Shown: positions 14,845 through 36,199 of the stretch, in pieces
How the letters are laid out: each line of letters opens with the position of its first letter
How positions within the stretch are numbered: the first letter of the stretch is position 1
From: a virus
IMG/VR virus record: IMGVR_UViG_3300009421_000010
Coordinates: 1 to 36,862 of that record
Strand: one strand, 5' to 3'
Length of the DNA stretch: 36,862 bases
Made by a program: the position numbers and the translations under genes
Notes under the pieces: model-generated
Database searches by the model: none
Told to the model about the DNA's origin: nothing
The model's input: only the letters and a program-made list of their open reading frames with translations

Positions 14845-17800
14845 ATGACAAGAGAGTCTTTTTTGGGAATAAATATCAATGACTTAAAAGAAGCCGAAAC
14901 AAAAGATAGAGAGAGAAATTCTTTCGTCGGCATCAACATCAATGAATTTCCTGAAGCTGAAACGAGAACACTTTATGATGAGGAATTAGGAAAAATGATA
15001 GAAGTCCCATCTGGAATAGACGAAATTGAAACTCAATTTAGAATAAATACAGATGTAAAAAATATCTCAGCGCAAAAGCACATCGCGGCAATACCTATAG
15101 ACGACTCTGAAGATGAGCCTTTTTACTTAGACGTCTATAATTTTGGAAGAAAGTTAGCGAACGGGGAACTGCTTTCAGCGGCTGGAAAGGGAGTAAAATA
15201 CTCCATAAAATCACTTCCTCAGCTATATGGATCTTATTTAAAGCAGAATGCAGCTGACCCGAATAAAAGAGCCAGGTCTGTTCTTGGTGGAAAAGGTTTC
15301 TCCTCTCTTGAATTAGATTTAGATTTCCCTGTTCAAGAAAACAAAGAATTGGATGGTTATGCAAATAAAATTATTAGTAAAAACAGAGAAAGGTTAGTTA
15401 ATGCTGGTTTGGTTCCTCCAGAAGATGACCCCTTGGGACAATTTTTTTTTGACGCCGGAGCAGGTGTAACGAACTTGGTGGCAGCCCTTGGGCTAACTTC
15501 CATAGTAAAAAGCCCCCTACCGGCTGCCGCTATGTTTTCAGAGATACAGAAAAATAACATTTATCTTGAGGGCAGGGAGGCTGGGTTAACTCACAGTGAG
15601 TCAATGGCTACAGCTGTACCAGCCGGCTTAGTACAGGGAGGTTTAGAGTTAATTGGACTAGATAGATTTTTTAAGATAGCTTCCGGAGATAAGTTTATAA
15701 AAAAAATTATAAAAAGATCTCCGATTCTGGGAGCTCAAGAGTCGCTTCAAAAGTTGTCTGAAGATGTTATCACTGACATAGGAAATGTAAGGGAAACTTC
15801 AGCTGAAGAAAAATTGGATAACATGCTTTACTCAGCACTACTGGGGATAACACTAGGGGCACCAGCCTCAGTTATTGTAACTTCTTTAGAATCAAAGGCG
15901 GAAAAAAATAAAATATCTAAGCGAAAAATCAGAGAAGGAGTAGCCAAGATAGAAGAGTCTAGGCTAGGAGACAGAATGAGAAAGCTGATAGAAAAGGAAG
16001 CCAATGATTCTCTCTTGGATCCTCAAACAGAGGCGCAAATTGTCGCAGACCTCAAAGAGGCTACGAAGGAAATTAAAGAGGACCCTCAGACCCAAGCAGA
16101 AACTTTAGAAAAAGTGCAAAAGATTAGAAATGATTCAGCTAATTTAAAAGAAGAATCAAAAATTCAAGAAAAATTTGATAAGACCATTATAGAAGGTAGG
16201 TTAAAAAAACTAGATGAACAGGTTTCTTCTTTTGATAAAGAGCTAGATTCAGCTTTTAAAATTTATGAAAGTAGGCAAAAAGATAAAAAGTCAACAATAA
16301 AAATTGAGCAAAAAATAAAAAGTTTAACAAGAAAAAGAGATCTTTTTGACGAAGAAAGAGCTGAGATATTAACAAATTCACCCACCAGGTCAGAACAAAG
16401 CATTATTAGAGATGGACAAAAAAATTCAGTCTCAACAAAAAATCCTTCTTTAAAATCATCTGAGCAATCAGACATCTCCTTGCGTGGATCAAAAGTTCAA
16501 AATTTAGGCCAAGATGCCATAAGGAGCATAAACAACTCCTTTAGAAAAGGAAGAAACTTAGCTAAAAAAGATGTTACTGAAGCTCAAGACTTTATAACAA
16601 ATCTAATTGACGAATCGGCGCTGCTTCCTAATGATAAAGCTAAGTTTATTAGGTCTATAAAAAATATAAAAGATGCAGAAACTCTTTCAATTAAACTTCC
16701 CGAAATACAAAGCAGAATATCTACACTTGTTGAGTCTGCGACAAAAAGAAATATAAAATCTAGTATAAAAAAATCCCTGTCTAAAACCAAGGTAAAAAAT
16801 CAAAGTGGTAAGCCAGTTGGGAAATTTGGACCTGAAGGCCAAGTTCTTTTGGACAAGTTGAGAGCTATATCAAAACTAAGCGCTGAAAATGCAAAATTGG
16901 CACTACAAAGTAAAAGAGAAGGTTTTGCTGACCTAGCTAAATCTGGAAGATTACCCTCTTACGAAAGCTCGCTAGAGTCGTCGTTACTTTCTTTAATTGC
17001 GGAAAGTTCTGACACAAGTCTCTCAGAAATGACCTCGTTAAAAAAAGACATAGATCAAATTATGTTGAAAGGAAGAACTGATAGAGAAGCCAAAATTTTG
17101 GCAAAAAAAGCAAAAACAGATAAAATAAAGTCAGGAATAAATTCTCTGATTTCAGAAGGAAAAAACCTAGATTTGGAAGAAAGCTCCACGTTCAAGGATT
17201 TTTTTAAATCAGCTAAAGGTTTTCAAGCTTGGGTAAATTACGCCTGGGGGGATATAATTGACTCTTTGTTACCTCCTAGTAAGACCAACTCAGAGTTGAA
17301 GGAGGTAATTGTTAAGGAGATGAATATTAGTCAAGAAATTCAGAGGGAAAAGGGGATAGTAAGAAAAAAAAGAGAGGCCTTTATAGACTTGGCGAAGGAA
17401 TCATTTGGAATCTCCAAAGAGGGTCAGCTTAATAATAAATTTTTACAAGATAGTAAGCAAAAAACTCTTGGTGTATTTTTGAATGCAAATAACAAACAAG
17501 TTAGGCTTCGGTATTCTAAAGCTCAGGCAAGGAAATTTTGGATGGAATTACAAGATCCTACTTTGAAAAAAACCATAACTTCTAAAAATGGAATGGCTTT
17601 TACCCCTGAAATGATTTCAGCAATTACCTCGGCATCCATGCTGGAAAGCGGCGATATAGCTTTTGCTAGAGGTCAGCTAAGATTATACAAGGAGTTTTAT
17701 CCGGAGATAAACAAAGTTTACTCCAATGTTTACCACGTGGATCTAATTAATATAAAAAATTACAGCCCAATTTCTAGGGTAGTTGATAAAGAGTTAGATT

Positions 17801-19143
17801 CAAACGCTGGAGAGTTTATGCAGGAAATCTTTACTAGACTTTCCGTGGCGCCAGGAAGTCTAAAGAGTCGAGTGAACAGCTTAGGGGAATTAAGAAAGAG
17901 TAGCGACACTGAAGTCTACCAAAAACACATAACTGAAATGGCTCACTTTATCGCCATGCAAGAAAAAATACAACAAGTCCAATCGGTCTTTGCAGATAAG
18001 GATGTTAGAAAAAATATAGAAATAAAAGCTGGGGCGTCTATTTTGGAATTAATTGACGACACAGTTGATTCGTTTGTCAGAAACGGATCGCAAAAATCTA
18101 ATAGACTGGGAACCTTTCTTAATTATCTAAATAGATCTTTCGCATTATCTGTTCTCGGAGGAAAAACTGCGCTTGCAGCAAAACAAATGACTTCTACGCT
18201 TGCTTATTGGGATGGAATGTCAGCTAAAGAATTTGCCTCAGGAGTTGCTGATTTTGCAAAAAACCCTAAGAAGGCAATTGAAATTTTAAATAAATCAGAG
18301 TTGGTCAAAGCTAGAGGAGTTCCTGAATTTGATCTAACTAAGGTTGGAAAAACCAATCAATTTAAAGGCCTGGCAATCAAAAATAAATTTGTAAACACCA
18401 TGCTCCTTCCTGTCAAATTCGGAGATAAGGGTGCAATTCTAATTGGAGGCTGGGCTTATTATAAAAATCAAATAAATAAAGGGAAGACTCATGATCAGGC
18501 TTTAAAGGCTTTTGAGGATTTCACATCAAAAACTCAACAGTCCACTGATCTTGATCAGATCACAGCTTTGCAAAGAATGGGTCCATTTGGAAAAGCTATG
18601 ACAATGTTCATGTCCGCTCCAAACGCTTATTATCGGGCAGAAGTGCGAGCGATAAGGCAGTTCAAAAGAGGGGAAATCTCTGGTAAGGAGTTTGGAAAAA
18701 AATTATTTATTTACCATGTTTTGCTGCCGGCCACTTTTCAATTTGTTGCAAATGGCTTTACTTTTGATGAAGATGATCAGCTGGTTGCTGTACTGACCGG
18801 GCCATTAAATGGATTTTTTATACTGGGGGATCTCGCAAATAACTTCATTAGAGAAATTTTTACGGGAGATTCCTACAGTCAAAGCGCTCTTAACGCCTTC
18901 AAGTTTGCGAGGGAAATAAAATCTGGTATGGCGGAAATTGTAAAATCTGGCGCTGATACCGACGAGGTTTTAGAGGGGTTATTAGATATAGTCACTGGAG
19001 TTGGAAGGGTTTCCTCCTTGCCAGTAGACCAGGCTAAAAACATAGCTGAAGGAATCGATAACGTAAATTCAGGAAAAGTCGTAAGGGGGACCATGAGATT
19101 TGCTGGATGGCCAAAAAAATCAGTTGCAGAAATTGATATATAG
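14845..19143 (+). CDS. Large internal virion/DNA ejection protein (T7 gp16-like position)
   Basis: The 1432-residue protein is the largest in the window. Its N-terminus has two copies of a 15-residue motif, S-F-(L/V)-G-I-N-I-N-x-x-x-E-A-E-T, at residues 5-19 and 26-40. A Gly/Ala/Leu-rich segment near 205-235 may associate with membrane. The middle (350-780) is Lys/Glu-rich and likely coiled. The C-terminal third contains hydrophobic and amphipathic helices and a G-P-F-G-K-A-M-T-M-F-M-S-A-P segment like that of other phage ejection proteins. I see no transglycosylase motif, so its wall-degrading ability, present in T7 gp16, is unproven. Its place after the gp15-like gene supports a core and inner-membrane channel role. 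Confidence 0.75.
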   Translation: MTRESFLGININDLKEAETKDRERNSFVGININEFPEAETRTLYDEELGKMIEVPSGIDEIETQFRINTDVKNISAQKHIAAIPIDDSEDEPFYLDVYNFGRKLANGELLSAAGKGVKYSIKSLPQLYGSYLKQNAADPNKRARSVLGGKGFSSLELDLDFPVQENKELDGYANKIISKNRERLVNAGLVPPEDDPLGQFFFDAGAGVTNLVAALGLTSIVKSPLPAAAMFSEIQKNNIYLEGREAGLTHSESMATAVPAGLVQGGLELIGLDRFFKIASGDKFIKKIIKRSPILGAQESLQKLSEDVITDIGNVRETSAEEKLDNMLYSALLGITLGAPASVIVTSLESKAEKNKISKRKIREGVAKIEESRLGDRMRKLIEKEANDSLLDPQTEAQIVADLKEATKEIKEDPQTQAETLEKVQKIRNDSANLKEESKIQEKFDKTIIEGRLKKLDEQVSSFDKELDSAFKIYESRQKDKKSTIKIEQKIKSLTRKRDLFDEERAEILTNSPTRSEQSIIRDGQKNSVSTKNPSLKSSEQSDISLRGSKVQNLGQDAIRSINNSFRKGRNLAKKDVTEAQDFITNLIDESALLPNDKAKFIRSIKNIKDAETLSIKLPEIQSRISTLVESATKRNIKSSIKKSLSKTKVKNQSGKPVGKFGPEGQVLLDKLRAISKLSAENAKLALQSKREGFADLAKSGRLPSYESSLESSLLSLIAESSDTSLSEMTSLKKDIDQIMLKGRTDREAKILAKKAKTDKIKSGINSLISEGKNLDLEESSTFKDFFKSAKGFQAWVNYAWGDIIDSLLPPSKTNSELKEVIVKEMNISQEIQREKGIVRKKREAFIDLAKESFGISKEGQLNNKFLQDSKQKTLGVFLNANNKQVRLRYSKAQARKFWMELQDPTLKKTITSKNGMAFTPEMISAITSASMLESGDIAFARGQLRLYKEFYPEINKVYSNVYHVDLINIKNYSPISRVVDKELDSNAGEFMQEIFTRLSVAPGSLKSRVNSLGELRKSSDTEVYQKHITEMAHFIAMQEKIQQVQSVFADKDVRKNIEIKAGASILELIDDTVDSFVRNGSQKSNRLGTFLNYLNRSFALSVLGGKTALAAKQMTSTLAYWDGMSAKEFASGVADFAKNPKKAIEILNKSELVKARGVPEFDLTKVGKTNQFKGLAIKNKFVNTMLLPVKFGDKGAILIGGWAYYKNQINKGKTHDQALKAFEDFTSKTQQSTDLDQITALQRMGPFGKAMTMFMSAPNAYYRAEVRAIRQFKRGEISGKEFGKKLFIYHVLLPATFQFVANGFTFDEDDQLVAVLTGPLNGFFILGDLANNFIREIFTGDSYSQSALNAFKFAREIKSGMAEIVKSGADTDEVLEGLLDIVTGVGRVSSLPVDQAKNIAEGIDNVNSGKVVRGTMRFAGWPKKSVAEIDI

Positions 19144-21260: not shown

Positions 21261-21638
21261 ATGAAAAATTTTAAAGACGAGTTATTAGTAGAATCGATCG
21301 GAAAAAAATGGGTATTAAAAAGAAGTTTTAGCTTTTATTACCTAGACCCAAAAAAAAAGCTACTTACCAAAAATGTAATTATCCCAGAAGGGTTTATTAC
21401 CGATTTTGCTTCTACGCCAAGATTGCTATATTCTATATTTCCGCCAATAGGAATTTACAATAAAGCTACCATAATTCATGATTTTCTCTACTCCTCTTTG
21501 TCAACAAATTTGACTAGAAAAGAATCAGACAAATTTTTTCTTCAGTCAATGGAGGTTCTAAAAGTAAAAAAATGGAAAAGAAACTTAATGTATTTAAGTG
21601 TAAGAATTTTTGGCAAGAAAAAATTTAAAACAAGATGA
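21261..21638 (+). CDS. DUF1353 family protein
   Basis: The 125-residue protein shows the DUF1353 pattern: I-P-E-G-F-I-T-D-F-A-S-T-P-R (about residues 41-54), then a conserved I-I-H-D-F-L-Y, a later E-S-D-K-F-F-L-Q-S-M, and W-K-R-N-L-M-Y. The function of this widespread phage family is unknown; the conserved His-Asp and Asp residues could bind a metal. The ATG at 21261 is preferred over an upstream GTG-type start at 21249 because it follows the previous stop without overlap. The stop overlaps the next gene by 4 bases (ATGA). Confidence 0.88.
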   Translation: MKNFKDELLVESIGKKWVLKRSFSFYYLDPKKKLLTKNVIIPEGFITDFASTPRLLYSIFPPIGIYNKATIIHDFLYSSLSTNLTRKESDKFFLQSMEVLKVKKWKRNLMYLSVRIFGKKKFKTR

Positions 21639-22282
21639 CTGACAAGGTATTAATTTTTCTTTTATTTTTTAATTTTTGCTTAGGTATTTTTATAAACAAC
21701 TTACCTTATCACTGCCAATTTTTTGTATGGAATTTTTTTATTCTTGCTGAAATCTTTCTGCTGTCACTTTGTTTGGGCAAGTTAGTAAGCTACAAAAATC
21801 AAAAAACTAAAGCCCTTGCGACTTGTTTGCTTATTTTTTCTGGCTTTTGGCTTGTAAGTTTTGTTGGAGAGTGGATTTTTTCCCATACCTCGTACTACAA
21901 TCAGACGGTAATATTTTTTTCAATTATACTATTTTGCCTTATTTTTCCCGCTGTTGCTATAATATCCTCTAGGTGCGCAATGCCTAAAAATTCCAAGTTC
22001 GACAAAAAGGATTCTTATTTAGTTTACAAGAAGCCTAGAAATTGGTCGGGGTTAATTGGTTTAGCTCTGCAACCTCCTTACGGACATTGTTCGCTAGTTA
22101 CTAAAAATAAAATTTTTAAATTCAAGAAAGGTGAAGTTATTGAAGAAGAATATTTTTTTTCTACGGAGGATTTGCATATAAAAATATTGCCGGTAAAATT
22201 GAAAGAAGCTAGGAAGCTTTTAGGAACTCAATGGTCTTTAAATAATAATTGTTTTCGTGTTTTTAGAAAATTTAGAAATTAA
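21635..22282 (+). CDS. Multi-span membrane protein with papain-like C-terminal region
   Basis: The 215-residue protein has about four hydrophobic segments (roughly 4-22, 28-50, 60-78 and 92-110), then a soluble domain of about 100 residues. That domain contains P-Y-G-H-C-S-L-V (His151) and, 55 residues later, W-S-L-N-N-N-C-F-R-V (Cys206). The His-before-Cys order and the N-N-C-F context resemble permuted NlpC/P60-like or papain-like cysteine hydrolases. If active, it could cleave a peptide or lipid amide at the inner membrane. It lies among lysis-associated membrane genes, but the domain assignment is by pattern only. Confidence 0.55.
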   Translation: MTDKVLIFLLFFNFCLGIFINNLPYHCQFFVWNFFILAEIFLLSLCLGKLVSYKNQKTKALATCLLIFSGFWLVSFVGEWIFSHTSYYNQTVIFFSIILFCLIFPAVAIISSRCAMPKNSKFDKKDSYLVYKKPRNWSGLIGLALQPPYGHCSLVTKNKIFKFKKGEVIEEEYFFSTEDLHIKILPVKLKEARKLLGTQWSLNNNCFRVFRKFRN

Positions 22283-22457
22283 AAATTTACTTGATTCAGC
22301 AACCTACATAGATCTTGTTTTAATATTTAAAATATTTTTAAGTTTCTTTGCTGTTATAATAGGTAGAAAATTAGGCAAAATAGCTAAGCAGATAGACAAT
22401 ATAAGTAATTCTTTAGCGGCGATAGAAATGAACATGAAAAAGAAAAAGAATAAATAG
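22257..22457 (+). CDS. Small membrane protein, holin-like or accessory
   Basis: The 66-residue protein has one strong hydrophobic segment (about residues 18-37) and a very basic C-terminus ending in a run of Lys. The GTG at 22257 overlaps the preceding gene by 26 bases; no ATG exists until the last residues, so the exact start is uncertain. A single TM segment with a polybasic tail occurs in some holins, pinholins and lysis regulators. It sits in a series of four membrane protein genes before the holin-like gene at 23061. Confidence 0.55.
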   Translation: MFLENLEIKNLLDSATYIDLVLIFKIFLSFFAVIIGRKLGKIAKQIDNISNSLAAIEMNMKKKKNK

Positions 22458-22458
22458 A

Positions 22459-23064
22459 ATGAATAATGATGATGAAGAAAAAAATTTAACTAGCCAAGCC
22501 CCTTTAAAAGCTCATGAAATAAAAGATTTTTTAACTGGCTTAACTGAGTCTGAGATAATAGCCAGCTGGACAGCTGTTTGGGAATGCTCCTTAGAAGGAA
22601 AAGCTATAGTAAAAAAAGATTTTACTTTTCATAGAGTGAATCCTAGATTTTGTGAGATTTTGGGAGTAAGTCCGGCAAAAATCATGGAGGGAACTTTTGG
22701 GGACATAACGCCAAAAAAAGTAAGAGAAGAAGATATACAAAATGCCAGGCTTGTAAGTGAAGGCAGGCAACAAAGTTATAAAATATTAAAACATTACGAA
22801 TTTGAAAATTCAAGATCAGTTGAAGTAGAATTGTTGGTGGTAGGTATATTTGGAAAAAGTACCAATAAATTTTTATTTTATGTTTCTAGTATAGTTCCAA
22901 GTACACCTCCCCCAAAGAAGCAAGCGACTTTATTTGAGCTGATCGATAAAAATAAAAAGAAAATAACTATTGCCTCAGCTTTTTTAGCTTCTATTGTAGC
23001 TTTGTGGGATACAATAAAAGCTCCGTTTACTTGGTTAATAAAAGCAATAGCAAATGAATTATGA
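22459..23064 (+). CDS. PAS-domain protein with C-terminal membrane anchor
   Basis: The 201-residue protein contains a PAS fold (about residues 30-147): the core stretch F-H-R-V-N-P-R-F-C-E-I-L-G-V-S-P (57-72) is the typical central PAS segment, followed by a connecting helix with E-D-I-Q-N-A-R and closing beta strands. A Pro-rich linker (147-153) leads to one hydrophobic segment (about 168-190) that would hold the protein in the inner membrane. No kinase, cyclase or HTH output domain is present, so it may be a sensor that acts through a partner. It starts one base after the previous stop and overlaps the holin-like gene by 4 bases (ATGA), suggesting coupled synthesis. Confidence 0.8.
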   Translation: MNNDDEEKNLTSQAPLKAHEIKDFLTGLTESEIIASWTAVWECSLEGKAIVKKDFTFHRVNPRFCEILGVSPAKIMEGTFGDITPKKVREEDIQNARLVSEGRQQSYKILKHYEFENSRSVEVELLVVGIFGKSTNKFLFYVSSIVPSTPPPKKQATLFELIDKNKKKITIASAFLASIVALWDTIKAPFTWLIKAIANEL

Positions 23065-23291
23065 TCAAAGGTTTATCTAATTTTTTTAAAGGACCTGGGC
23101 AAGAAAACTCTTCAAAGAGACTTGTTGGAATTTTGGCAGGGATTATTTTAATTTACTTAGCCTTTAGAGGAGGAGAGACCTTTTTGTCTCTAGGAAAATC
23201 CGATGAATTTTTAAAGCTATTTGAAATCTTTTGCTACTTTGTTGCTGCAATTTTAGGTTTAGGGCTAGCAGATCACTGCATAAAAAAATAA
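23061..23291 (+). CDS. Putative holin
   Basis: The 76-residue protein has two hydrophobic segments (about residues 21-37 and 54-72) separated by a short charged turn, and a small N-terminal polar part with S-S-K-R-L-V-G-I. This layout and size fit a two-span holin that opens the inner membrane to release the endolysin. Its ATG overlaps the stop of the PAS-protein gene. Endolysin and spanin genes follow 1.5 kb later, separated by an inverted cassette. Confidence 0.65.
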   Translation: MIKGLSNFFKGPGQENSSKRLVGILAGIILIYLAFRGGETFLSLGKSDEFLKLFEIFCYFVAAILGLGLADHCIKK

Positions 23292-23320: not shown

Positions 23321-23665
23321 ATGAGTAAATATAAAGGAATAGAACTTATTGATTCGTCAGATTCAAGCCTAGCTCCTGGCGATTCTGGAAATCTATCTTT
23401 CAGGCCTTCTTGGGGAAACAATATTCTTCATCCGGGAAATAAACCTCTTTTGGCCATATATGGCACTTTTTCAGATTGCCAAATAATTTTGAAATTCAAA
23501 GCTCCTGATAATTTGTGGTACGATGTTAATGGGATAAAGATAGAGGATTGTGGGCTATATGAACTTCCTGTCAACTCAAATGTAGAAATGTCTATAGATT
23601 ACACAGCTGGTGGGTCTAGCTCTATAAGCGCTTTTGTTTTTCACGGTGAAAAGCCTCAAGAGTAA
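23321..23665 (+). CDS. Hypothetical beta-rich small protein
   Basis: The 114-residue protein is rich in Ser, Gly, Asp and aromatic residues with alternating strand-like segments. It includes L-L-A-I-Y-G-T-F-S-D-C-Q-I-I-L-K-F-K (about 43-60) and a C-terminal S-S-I-S-A-F-V-F-H-G strand. The pattern suggests a single beta-sandwich, as in small virion decoration or fibre-tip proteins. I recognise no family. It is convergent with the inverted cassette, 6 bases apart, with a weak hairpin (23660-23665 with 23675-23681) at the meeting point. Confidence 0.55.
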   Translation: MSKYKGIELIDSSDSSLAPGDSGNLSFRPSWGNNILHPGNKPLLAIYGTFSDCQIILKFKAPDNLWYDVNGIKIEDCGLYELPVNSNVEMSIDYTAGGSSSISAFVFHGEKPQE

Positions 23666-23671
23666 GTAATT

Positions 23672-23944
23672 TTATTCACTCTCCTCCAAAAGCAACTCTT
23701 CCTTAAAATAGCTTTCAACACCTTCGTAAAGATTCACATTTGACATTACTTGTTCGTAGGTTTTGTTGTGAGAGCCCTCTGCCGGAGGCTTAACTATTAG
23801 CCATTTTTGTATAACTGGCGAGTAAAAGCCACTATCCCACATTATAGTTTTTTCTTTAGGAAAGCTATAATTTGAATTTATTAAAGCTAAATCTTGAGTC
23901 ATTAATTCTTGACTAAGATAAACAAGATAATCTATTTTTTTCAT
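23672..23944 (-). CDS. Hypothetical protein, partner of the lectin-like gene
   Basis: The 90-residue protein starts at ATG 23944, overlapping the TGA of the upstream lectin-like gene by ATGA, so translation is coupled. It contains M-W-D-S-G-F-Y-S-P-V-I-Q-K-W (about 42-55) and an acidic C-terminus of Glu and Leu. A longer start at 23965 would overlap the upstream gene more and is less likely. The context, a structural adhesin-like gene before it, suggests a chaperone or assembly partner. I do not recognise a family. Confidence 0.6.
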   Translation of the reverse strand: MKKIDYLVYLSQELMTQDLALINSNYSFPKEKTIMWDSGFYSPVIQKWLIVKPPAEGSHNKTYEQVMSNVNLYEGVESYFKEELLLEESE

Positions 23945-24735
23945 GTTGTGATTGCTATGCCCCATTTATTTGATAAATATTGAAAATTGTCGCTAAATTC
24001 TTGGTCGCTTAACTTTCTATCATAGCAGACAAACTCACCCATGTCACAATTGAAAGCATTTTGACCACTAGTGTTTCTTGCGCATAAAATAAGACCTTCA
24101 TTACTTCCCATAACTTCTTTATCTCTCGCTTGCAAGTTTGACAGATTACTTAATCCATTCAGGTATATTCCTATTTCAGTTGGGCTATTATCTTTGAAAG
24201 CCAAAATGTAATTTCCGGCTGGTAAGTTTGCGTTATAGGGAGCGAAATTTAAGTTTGTAGCAGTTCTGTGAAAGCCTGAAACGTAAGTCACAACTTCATT
24301 TGTAACGAAGCTACTTGTTGCGCCCAATGCTACGTAATTTGATGAAGTGGATCTTCCGGCAAAAGGCATTTGAAAAGAGGATGCTGCATTAAAATTTTGG
24401 AAAGTCTTAAAAACCATAAAGATTGTTTGAGCGTAAAATCCTGATGGAGTTTGTAAAAATTGCGATTGGTCAAAATTAATAGCATTATTTCCGTTTATAT
24501 TTCCAGAATAAGAGGGCTGTGACGAACCTAAAGTTTGATTTGCAGTTATTCCATTTCCTGATTTGTCATAAAGCTCTTCCACTGAATTTCCGACCACTTT
24601 TAAATTACTTGAGTCTTGTGCGTCGTACCAAATCTTACTTCCTGCAACAATACTTGATTCTATAACTTCTTCAGTTTTATTTAATACCAAAGAGTGAGTT
24701 GACCTTAAAGGTCTTTGAAGAACTTTTTTAAGCAT
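23941..24735 (-). CDS. Lectin-like (ConA/LamG-type) virion protein
   Basis: From the ATG at 24735 the protein has 264 residues; a TTG start at 24801 would add 22 residues of Lys- and Leu-rich sequence. The main part resembles concanavalin A-like/LamG modules of phage virion proteins: I-W-Y-D-A-Q-D-S-S-N-L, then L-Y-D-K-S-G-N-G-I-T-A-N-Q, then N-G-N-N-A-I-N-F-D followed by a jelly-roll-like series and a C-terminal R-K-L-S-D-Q-E-F. Such domains bind sugars or proteins at the host surface. It lies on the opposite strand to its neighbours together with its small partner, as a two-gene inserted or invertible-looking unit. I saw no flanking inverted repeat. Confidence 0.75.
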   Translation of the reverse strand: MLKKVLQRPLRSTHSLVLNKTEEVIESSIVAGSKIWYDAQDSSNLKVVGNSVEELYDKSGNGITANQTLGSSQPSYSGNINGNNAINFDQSQFLQTPSGFYAQTIFMVFKTFQNFNAASSFQMPFAGRSTSSNYVALGATSSFVTNEVVTYVSGFHRTATNLNFAPYNANLPAGNYILAFKDNSPTEIGIYLNGLSNLSNLQARDKEVMGSNEGLILCARNTSGQNAFNCDMGEFVCYDRKLSDQEFSDNFQYLSNKWGIAITT

Positions 24736-24837
24736 GAAAAATTTTAATTTTAATTTGTTATCTTTTGGATTGAATTTTAGTAAAAGTTTTTTAATAATCA
24801 AAGGTAAATTAATAAAACTTTAATTTTTCACTACTTA

Positions 24838-25092
24838 ATGAAAAAATATATAGCTTTGATAACCCTAGCAACCTTGGCGGCCTTTTGGTTTTTTAACAAA
24901 GGGGCGGAGATTAACGAAGTGAAAAATATAGCAAAAGAGCAAAAGCAACAAATAGAATATAAAAATGAGATTATTAAAGTTAAAAATTTTCAACAAGACC
25001 TGGTTAGAAAAACTCCTTGTAACAATTCCGCTGATGATCGCCGTGAGTTCTTGCAGTTTATTTTCGAAGAGAGAAAAAATACTGATAGGTGA
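24838..25092 (+). CDS. Inner-membrane spanin (Rz-like)
   Basis: The 84-residue protein has an N-terminal membrane segment (about residues 4-20) followed by a charged, probably coiled-coil periplasmic part rich in Glu, Lys and Gln. The overlapping +1 frame encodes a lipoprotein whose start (24965) lies inside this gene, the hallmark arrangement of the Rz/Rz1 spanin pair that fuses inner and outer membranes in the last step of lysis. The endolysin gene comes right after. It is shorter than lambda Rz, but the topology is right. Confidence 0.78.
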   Translation: MKKYIALITLATLAAFWFFNKGAEINEVKNIAKEQKQQIEYKNEIIKVKNFQQDLVRKTPCNNSADDRREFLQFIFEERKNTDR

Positions 25093-25282
25093 TTTTTCTG
25101 AAAAGTACTATGAATTTCCTAACAATAAGCAGGTAATAGATTACGTTGTGATTGGACCACCGGAGTTGTTCGAATACATTAAAGTCAACGAATCAACAAA
25201 CGCCTGCGAAAAAAAAGACACAAAAGAATTAACTGATCAATGCTATATAAAAATAACGAATAGAGAAAATGTTAAAAAATGA
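24965..25282 (+). CDS. Outer-membrane spanin lipoprotein (Rz1-like), embedded start
   Basis: The frame starts inside the Rz-like gene and continues 190 bases beyond its stop. It has a basic N-terminus, a hydrophobic segment and a lipobox-like A-V-S-S-C (Cys30), then a 75-residue mature part. The mature part is longer and less Pro-rich than lambda Rz1, with an unusual polar C-terminus containing two Cys (about 81 and 93). The lipobox plus the overlap with an Rz-like gene gives the call; a start later than 24965 would cut into the signal peptide. Its end overlaps the endolysin start by 14 bases. Confidence 0.75.
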   Translation: MRLLKLKIFNKTWLEKLLVTIPLMIAVSSCSLFSKREKILIGDFSEKYYEFPNNKQVIDYVVIGPPELFEYIKVNESTNACEKKDTKELTDQCYIKITNRENVKK

Positions 25283-25817
25283 AATAATAGGAAGGATTAT
25301 AGACTTAGAGGGTGGCTATGTAAATGATCCGCGGGATTCGGGTGGAGAAACCAATTTTGGAATTACGAAAAAAGTTGCTATAACTAATGGGTATAAAGGC
25401 GATATGAAAAAAATGCCTTACTCCGTGGCTTTTAAAATCTATTCTAAAAAATATTGGGATCCCATGAGCTTAGATAAGATTCAGTTGTGGTCTCCTTCTA
25501 TAGCAGAGGAGCTTGCTGATACCGCGGTGAATATGGGGGTTACTCGCGCTTCAAAATTTCTCCAAAGATCTTTAAATGCTCTTAATAATATCCAAAAAAA
25601 TTACCCTGATTTAAAGTTGGATGGCATTTTGGGAGGTAACACAGTTAAATCTTTAAAAAAATTCTTGTTTACAAGGGGATCCGAAGGTGAAAAGGTTATC
25701 CTAAAAATGCTTAACTGCTTGCAGGGAGAATTTTATGTTTCCTTGGCTGAGCGTAGAGAAAAAGACGAAAGATTTATTTTTGGCTGGTTTAAAAATAGAA
25801 TATCTGATCTAAAATAA
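25269..25817 (+). CDS. Endolysin, GH108 N-acetylmuramidase
   Basis: The 182-residue protein begins with the GH108 catalytic pattern E-G-G-Y-V-N-D-P (Glu14 as catalytic acid), followed by G-G-E-T-N-F-G-I-T. A C-terminal region (about 80-175) with L-Q-R-S-L-N and D-G-I-L-G-G-N-T-V resembles a peptidoglycan-binding fold. It cuts the glycan chains of the wall after the holin opens the membrane. No signal peptide is seen, so holin-dependent release is expected. Its last 9 bases overlap the convergent leftward gene, closing the rightward transcription block. Confidence 0.93.
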   Translation: MLKNEIIGRIIDLEGGYVNDPRDSGGETNFGITKKVAITNGYKGDMKKMPYSVAFKIYSKKYWDPMSLDKIQLWSPSIAEELADTAVNMGVTRASKFLQRSLNALNNIQKNYPDLKLDGILGGNTVKSLKKFLFTRGSEGEKVILKMLNCLQGEFYVSLAERREKDERFIFGWFKNRISDLK

Positions 25818-36122: not shown

Positions 36123-36199
36123 TGGTCAGGGTGGCAGGATTTGAACCTGCGACCTCAAGTGTCCAAGACTTGCACGCTACCAAGCTGCGCTACACCCTG
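36123..36199 (-). tRNA. tRNA-Pro(UGG), CCA end encoded
   Basis: On the minus strand a complete cloverleaf can be drawn: acceptor CAGGGTG/CACCCTG, D stem GCGC/GCGT, anticodon stem CAAGT/ACTTG with loop CTTGGAC (anticodon TGG), and T stem GCAGG/CCTGC with loop TTCAAAT. Discriminator A and an encoded CCA follow. The C1-G72 pair and A73 are typical of tRNA-Pro. CCA is a common Pro codon in the virion genes, so a supplementary role for late translation is plausible. A tRNA can also be an integration site, but no integrase gene is seen. Confidence 0.96.

Follow-up and report, generated by a model that had tools for sequence, protein, structure and literature searches.

A PAS-domain protein coupled to a holin-like gene occupies a lysis-neighbour slot in a phage genome

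We report a phage gene for a predicted PAS-domain protein that is translationally coupled to the gene of a small holin-like protein, p76. Together with a short preceding gene, p66, it stands where sister phages carry a tail-anchored protein of the phrog_6420 type. We tentatively read the PAS protein as an antiholin-like lysis modulator, tethered to the membrane on its cytosolic side, that took over this slot, a reading to which we give somewhat less than an even chance. The DNA analysed, hereafter the window, is the IMG/VR virus record IMGVR_UViG_3300009421_000010 (36,862 bases), and its head-tail adaptor is kin to the adaptor of epsilon15-type podophages. Two other features of the record are a structural-region gene for a protein of 1432 aa (14845-19143), for which tblastn against 50,697 phage records gave no match, and a tRNA-Pro gene (TGG anticodon) on the minus strand near the record end (36123-36199).

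The PAS gene is the third of four consecutive genes (Table 1), a run that had been predicted from the sequence and that we confirmed both as open reading frames (ORFs) and in its membrane segments, hydropathy placing four transmembrane (TM) segments in p215, one in p66, one in the PAS protein and two in p76. The ATG of p215 overlaps the stop codon of a DUF1353 gene (ATGA), and the p66 start is nested in the 3' end of p215. The predicted linkage of the last three genes was borne out by the ORF coordinates: a single base separates p66 from the PAS gene, and the PAS gene and p76 are joined by an ATGA overlap. The p66 protein, first described as a polybasic single-TM peptide, has a lysine-rich tail; it matched no family in Pfam, PHROGs or NCBIfam. 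A recognisable ribosome-binding site was not found at the p66 start or at most other starts nearby, and promoter and terminator scans performed no better than on shuffled sequence. The flanks are conserved on either side of the slot and the PAS gene shows the codon usage of the window in general, which ruled out an assembly chimera.

Table 1 Coordinates of the four-gene run, the lysis genes and related families
Feature	Position	Strand	Description
p215	21635..22282	+	4 TM segments and C-terminal domain (conserved P, G, TxW, NNC); opens coupled run
p66	22257..22457	+	GTG start; one TM segment, lysine-rich tail
PAS protein	22459..23064	+	PAS domain ~30-150, linker rich in proline, then helix 154-200 as presumed C-terminal membrane anchor
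p76	23061..23291	+	2-TM holin-like protein (SSKR...LGLGLAD)
i-spanin (Rz-like)	24838..25092	+	phrog_1026 Rz-like spanin, E 0.0036; N-terminal TM
o-spanin	24965..25282	+	lipoprotein; signal/lipobox ...MIAVSSC read directly; out-of-frame overlap with i-spanin gene
GH108 endolysin with PG_binding_3	25269..25817	+	PF05838 E 1.3e-23, PF09374 E 2.1e-18; phrog_315 endolysin
p215 family members	window 21635-22282; L093:3695-4342; L094:2977-3318; L095-L103
Cellulophaga N-anchored PAS-like proteins (phrog_10199 / phrog_31932)	L150:39102-39620; L152:3411-4046; L153:3435-4037; L151:7203-7925		beside lysis enzymes of different families

Aligning p215 with distant relatives from Vibrio phages led us to three sister contigs (L099, L100 and L101), in which the counterparts of the window proteins are 64-66% (DUF1353), 56-57% (p215), 60% (p76) and 59-62% (endolysin) identical. 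Their gene order is DUF1353, p218, a 117-aa protein, a 2-TM protein, Rz, Rz1 and GH108. The gene of the 117-aa protein, hereafter the slot gene, lies directly between the p215 relative and the lysis genes, with overlaps; its product is helical, has a membrane segment at the C terminus and gives a phrog_6420 match with an E-value of ~1e-9. The same family fills the slot after p215 in a fourth contig (L102) and in three tested Vibrio phage records (E 0.002 to 3e-5). Relatives of the slot protein of Vibrio phage VpaJT_1 occur in 64 Vibrio records, compared with 66 that carry a p215 relative, and in the Vibrio phages the slot gene lies directly 5' of the endolysin gene.

A model built from eight slot proteins found nothing in the window (best E 0.35), the PAS protein matched neither this model nor phrog_6420, and an ORF like p66 is absent from the three sister contigs. 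As the window lacks the slot family, p66 and the PAS gene stand in place of the sisters' 117-aa gene, replacing a phrog_6420-type gene between p215 and p76. Weakly phrog_6420-like genes also follow tail genes in a Yuavirus and the endolysin and spanin genes in Xanthomonas phage Mallos. Three further DUF1353 relatives (L008, L010 and L011) have surroundings that differ from those in the window. One sister contig (L099:2664-3002, minus strand) also encodes, just after the endolysin gene, a 112-aa coiled-coil protein with one hydrophobic segment.

The neighbour on the other side of the slot, p76, is holin-like by topology and place. It is small, has two TM segments and is encoded in the lysis cassette, as is expected of two-TM holins. 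Its membership of the cassette follows from its sister relative, a 2-TM protein of 60% identity whose gene in L099 and L100 lies right beside those for the spanins and the same GH108 endolysin. No holin family in Pfam, PHROGs or NCBIfam matched p76; the 2-TM protein of L100 gave phrog_9987 (holin) at E 0.15, and a scan with the p76 alignment returned the same sister contigs and nothing further. The spanin and GH108 endolysin genes start 1.5 kb downstream of the four-gene run, with p114 and two reverse-strand ORFs separating p76 from the spanins; the overlapping Rz/Rz1 arrangement is also present in L099 and L100. The original prediction of a series of membrane lysis genes holds in that p76 belongs to the lysis cassette, but the undisputed lysis genes (24838-25817) lie outside the span to which it was applied. 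The insert itself (23321-24801), comprising p114 and reverse-strand ORFs of 97 and 286 aa, is missing from the sister contigs.

At the head of the run, p215 has close relatives in the sister contigs (56-57% identical) and distant ones in Vibrio phages. Its C-terminal tail had been taken for a papain-like domain with a His/Cys pair. Cys206, the cysteine of the NNC motif, is invariant, and His151 is kept in the close sisters only and lost in the distant relatives. No family in Pfam or NCBIfam matched the tail, and the AlphaFold model shows an order of strands and helices compatible with a papain-like or LRAT-like thiol hydrolase fold, but at a pLDDT of 54. We treat the papain-like assignment as unproven. 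The C-terminal domain of p215 represents a lysis-neighbour family that occurs in ~66 records of Vibrio phages as well as in unrelated viral contigs, usually with genes for a tail-anchored protein and an endolysin coming next.

The chief alternative to a lysis modulator is a late membrane protein with no part in lysis, which would act for example in superinfection exclusion or envelope modification and merely share a late operon with p215 and p66. Neither p215 nor phrog_6420 has a known function, phrog_6420-like genes do not always stand by lysis genes, and p114 and the two reverse-strand ORFs have likewise been inserted in this region. The sister slot gene is nevertheless placed, with overlaps, directly between p215 and the lysis genes, and in the Vibrio phages it immediately precedes the endolysin gene. 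We regard a role outside lysis as rather unlikely, though a serious contender.

The identity of the PAS domain, as called in the original prediction, is solid on the strength of a profile score over the cut-off and a predicted fold. The protein passed the NCBIfam sensory-box profile TIGR00229 with 25.5 bits against a cut-off of 22.9 and matched the DgcE-type model NF007298 at E 5.9e-7. Pfam PAS_4 and PAS_9 were reached at E ~1e-3, PAS_4, PAS_9 and PAS_8 all staying below their own cut-offs. AlphaFold predicted a standard PAS core (pLDDT ~95; 83 for the whole protein) followed by one continuous helix, residues 154-200; the high confidence of the core derives in part from the input alignment, which consisted of 29 bacterial PAS domains. 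A Foldseek search with this model returned PAS domains as the top PDB matches (E ~1e-7). The nearest relatives are bacterial S-box PAS domains, DgcE-like and ~20-32% identical. The C-terminal segment is marginally hydrophobic, with a Kyte-Doolittle maximum of 1.5 over 19 aa, close to the 1.65-1.75 of the anchors of the sister slot proteins; this single segment, within the continuous helix, agrees with the C-terminal anchor that had been predicted. A forced alignment suggested homology between this anchor and the slot proteins, which we rejected as unsupported.

Whether the domain senses anything is a separate matter. The original prediction pictured lysis timing that responds to redox state, light, gas or a metabolite. 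The LOV cysteine motif (NCRFLQ) is absent, and no histidine occurs in the F-helix (86-100), the only histidines of the protein being at positions 19, 58 and 112. The DIT motif couples S-box PAS domains to output; here it (EDIT.RK) is replaced by SSIVPSTPPPKK, and no output domain was found in the protein, in keeping with its description as a PAS domain without output. The HPDD, EKRY and W positions of the S-box are lost as well. Of 62 scored consensus positions the window PAS domain keeps 39%, compared with 52-89% in bacterial members, a gap that is somewhat inflated because the bacterial set was gathered by motif. Redox, light or gas sensing finds no backing in these residues, and ligand sensing is possible but unsupported. 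What stands of the proposed tie between PAS domain and holin is the translational coupling to a holin-like gene of the lysis cassette; the sensing part does not.

The kinship to host-type, DgcE-like S-box domains and the missing output domain would also suit a decoy, in which the tethered domain forms pairs with PAS proteins of the host, such as histidine kinases or DgcE-type diguanylate cyclases, and so disturbs host signalling late in infection. PAS domains do dimerise, as in VqmA (PMC8284805). The position of the gene in the late lysis region, its coupling to p76 and the low share of consensus positions kept speak against such pairing, and we consider it improbable. Slightly more doubtful still is a true ligand- or redox-gated timer, in which occupancy of the PAS pocket by a metabolite or cofactor would alter the triggering of the holin. 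The predicted core is intact, the gene is coupled to that of p76, and VqmA of phage VP882 is a phage PAS ligand sensor that leads to lysis, though by transcription (PMC8284805). Against this timer stand the absent LOV motif and F-helix histidine, the loss of DIT and many other S-box residues, and the lack of a known path from a ligand to a membrane helix.

Direct searches of phages, viral contigs and genomes with the PAS protein returned no relative beyond generic S-box domains. Neither a PAS model run over 46 portal-related records (many of them fragments) nor an alignment-guided PAS scan of viral contigs gave a match, and a consensus S-box PAS domain searched against 50,697 phage records gave four weak matches only (E 0.09-0.4). 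A search of open-licence papers turned up no relevant one that pairs a PAS domain with a holin. Foldseek with the PAS model did reach two proteins of Cellulophaga phages, one of 240 aa in phi19:1 (gp108 by protein length; E 1.4e-5) and one of 172 aa in phi18:3 (gp090 by protein length; E 2.0e-4), whose families are related to each other. The gp090 gene lies two genes before an endolysin gene. Its relatives are phi3:1 gp11, the gene of which overlaps an L-alanoyl-D-glutamate peptidase gene, and Ingeline gp36, two genes before a DUF5675 gene. In phi19:1, the gp108 gene overlaps one whose product weakly resembles holins (PF16083 E 0.049; PHROG holin E 0.0065), and a lysozyme gene follows a few genes downstream.

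These Cellulophaga proteins are PAS-like by Foldseek comparison of predicted folds alone; hhalign against the PAS set gave a probability of 0.1 on a thin alignment, and a PDB profile search with the Cellulophaga family gave nothing. Their N-terminal anchor has a basic end, so the PAS-like part should face the periplasm. Their place beside lysis genes, in Cellulophaga phages of several groups, may point to more than one origin of the pairing. In a bolder version, which we think very doubtful, the PAS protein would be a ligand-gated antiholin, a helical holin partner having been swapped for a sensor domain through which a host metabolite or cofactor directly sets lysis time without transcription, and the Cellulophaga phages would have independently evolved a periplasmic counterpart. 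Decay or a chance acquisition without present function, to which the eroded S-box consensus and the lack of relatives of the same architecture might point, is highly improbable given the open frame, intact predicted core, coupling on both sides and phage-typical codon usage.

The antiholin-like modulator remains our preferred reading. The PAS protein would be a late-expressed accessory of the lysis cassette whose cytosolic PAS domain is held at the inner membrane by the C-terminal helix, and coupled translation with p76 would set the ratio of the two proteins. The PAS domain would most likely provide for dimerisation or docking, through which the membrane proteins p76 or p215 are held, delayed or clustered, a role that fits the loss of the DIT output motif. 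Lysis timing would then be tuned, with hole formation delayed or organised, through p76 or p215. This modulator accords with the PAS identity, the tight joints to p66 and p76, the tail-anchored phrog_6420 protein in the sisters' slot between neighbours 56-66% identical to those in the window, the p76 relative adjoining spanins and endolysin, the codon usage, and the Cellulophaga PAS-like membrane proteins encoded next to different lysis enzymes. The cytoplasm is one possible site of antiholin action (PMC12162936), and antiholin genes are often near holin genes (PMC7182436). Weighing against it are the lack of a detected phage relative of the PAS protein, the Yuavirus gene that follows tail rather than lysis genes, the absence of a holin family match for p76 and the marginal hydrophobicity of the C-terminal segment.

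Several known systems resemble the arrangement in part. The phrog_6420-type proteins (L099-L101, Vibrio phages such as VpaJT_1 and 1.103.O) share its place, after p215 and before the holin or endolysin gene, and its plan of a cytosolic part followed by a hydrophobic helix at the C terminus, similar in hydropathy; their body is helical or coiled-coil where the window protein has a PAS domain, and they show no detectable sequence relation to it. The Cellulophaga proteins (phi18:3 gp090, phi3:1 gp11, Ingeline gp36 and phi19:1 gp108) likewise combine a single PAS-like domain and a single anchor near endolysin or holin-like genes, but that anchor is N-terminal and the domain presumably periplasmic, whereas the window protein is anchored at its C terminus. 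Bacterial DgcE-type S-box domains belong to the same subfamily, from which the window protein differs by lacking an output domain and the DIT, HPDD, EKRY and W positions.

In known systems the timing of lysis depends on how holin accumulates and on antiholins, and the signal for lysis inhibition in T4 and ICP1 is superinfection. The T4 antiholin RIII is small and soluble and has no PAS domain, a description that sets it apart from the window protein. The two share a proposed site of action, the cytoplasmic face, on the holin; RIII is described as acting on the cytoplasmic side (Chen and Young 2016, as cited in PMC12162936). VqmA of VP882 is, like the window protein, a phage-encoded PAS protein, and its signal ends in lysis (PMC8284805). 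It differs in pairing its PAS domain with a DNA-binding domain that acts on the qtip promoter in a lysis-lysogeny switch, in not being tethered to the membrane and in being encoded outside a holin cassette; the VP882 lysis signal acts through transcription (PMC8284805).

The comparison points to a conserved lysis-neighbour module of marine phages, made up of p215 and a tail-anchored protein, and, in Cellulophaga phages, to PAS-like membrane proteins retained next to endolysins of different types. A PAS domain brought to a holin-like gene by slot replacement is a defined and testable candidate for controlling lysis after translation, possibly in response to a signal, and a tethered PAS domain at such a gene may be a new way of tuning lysis timing.
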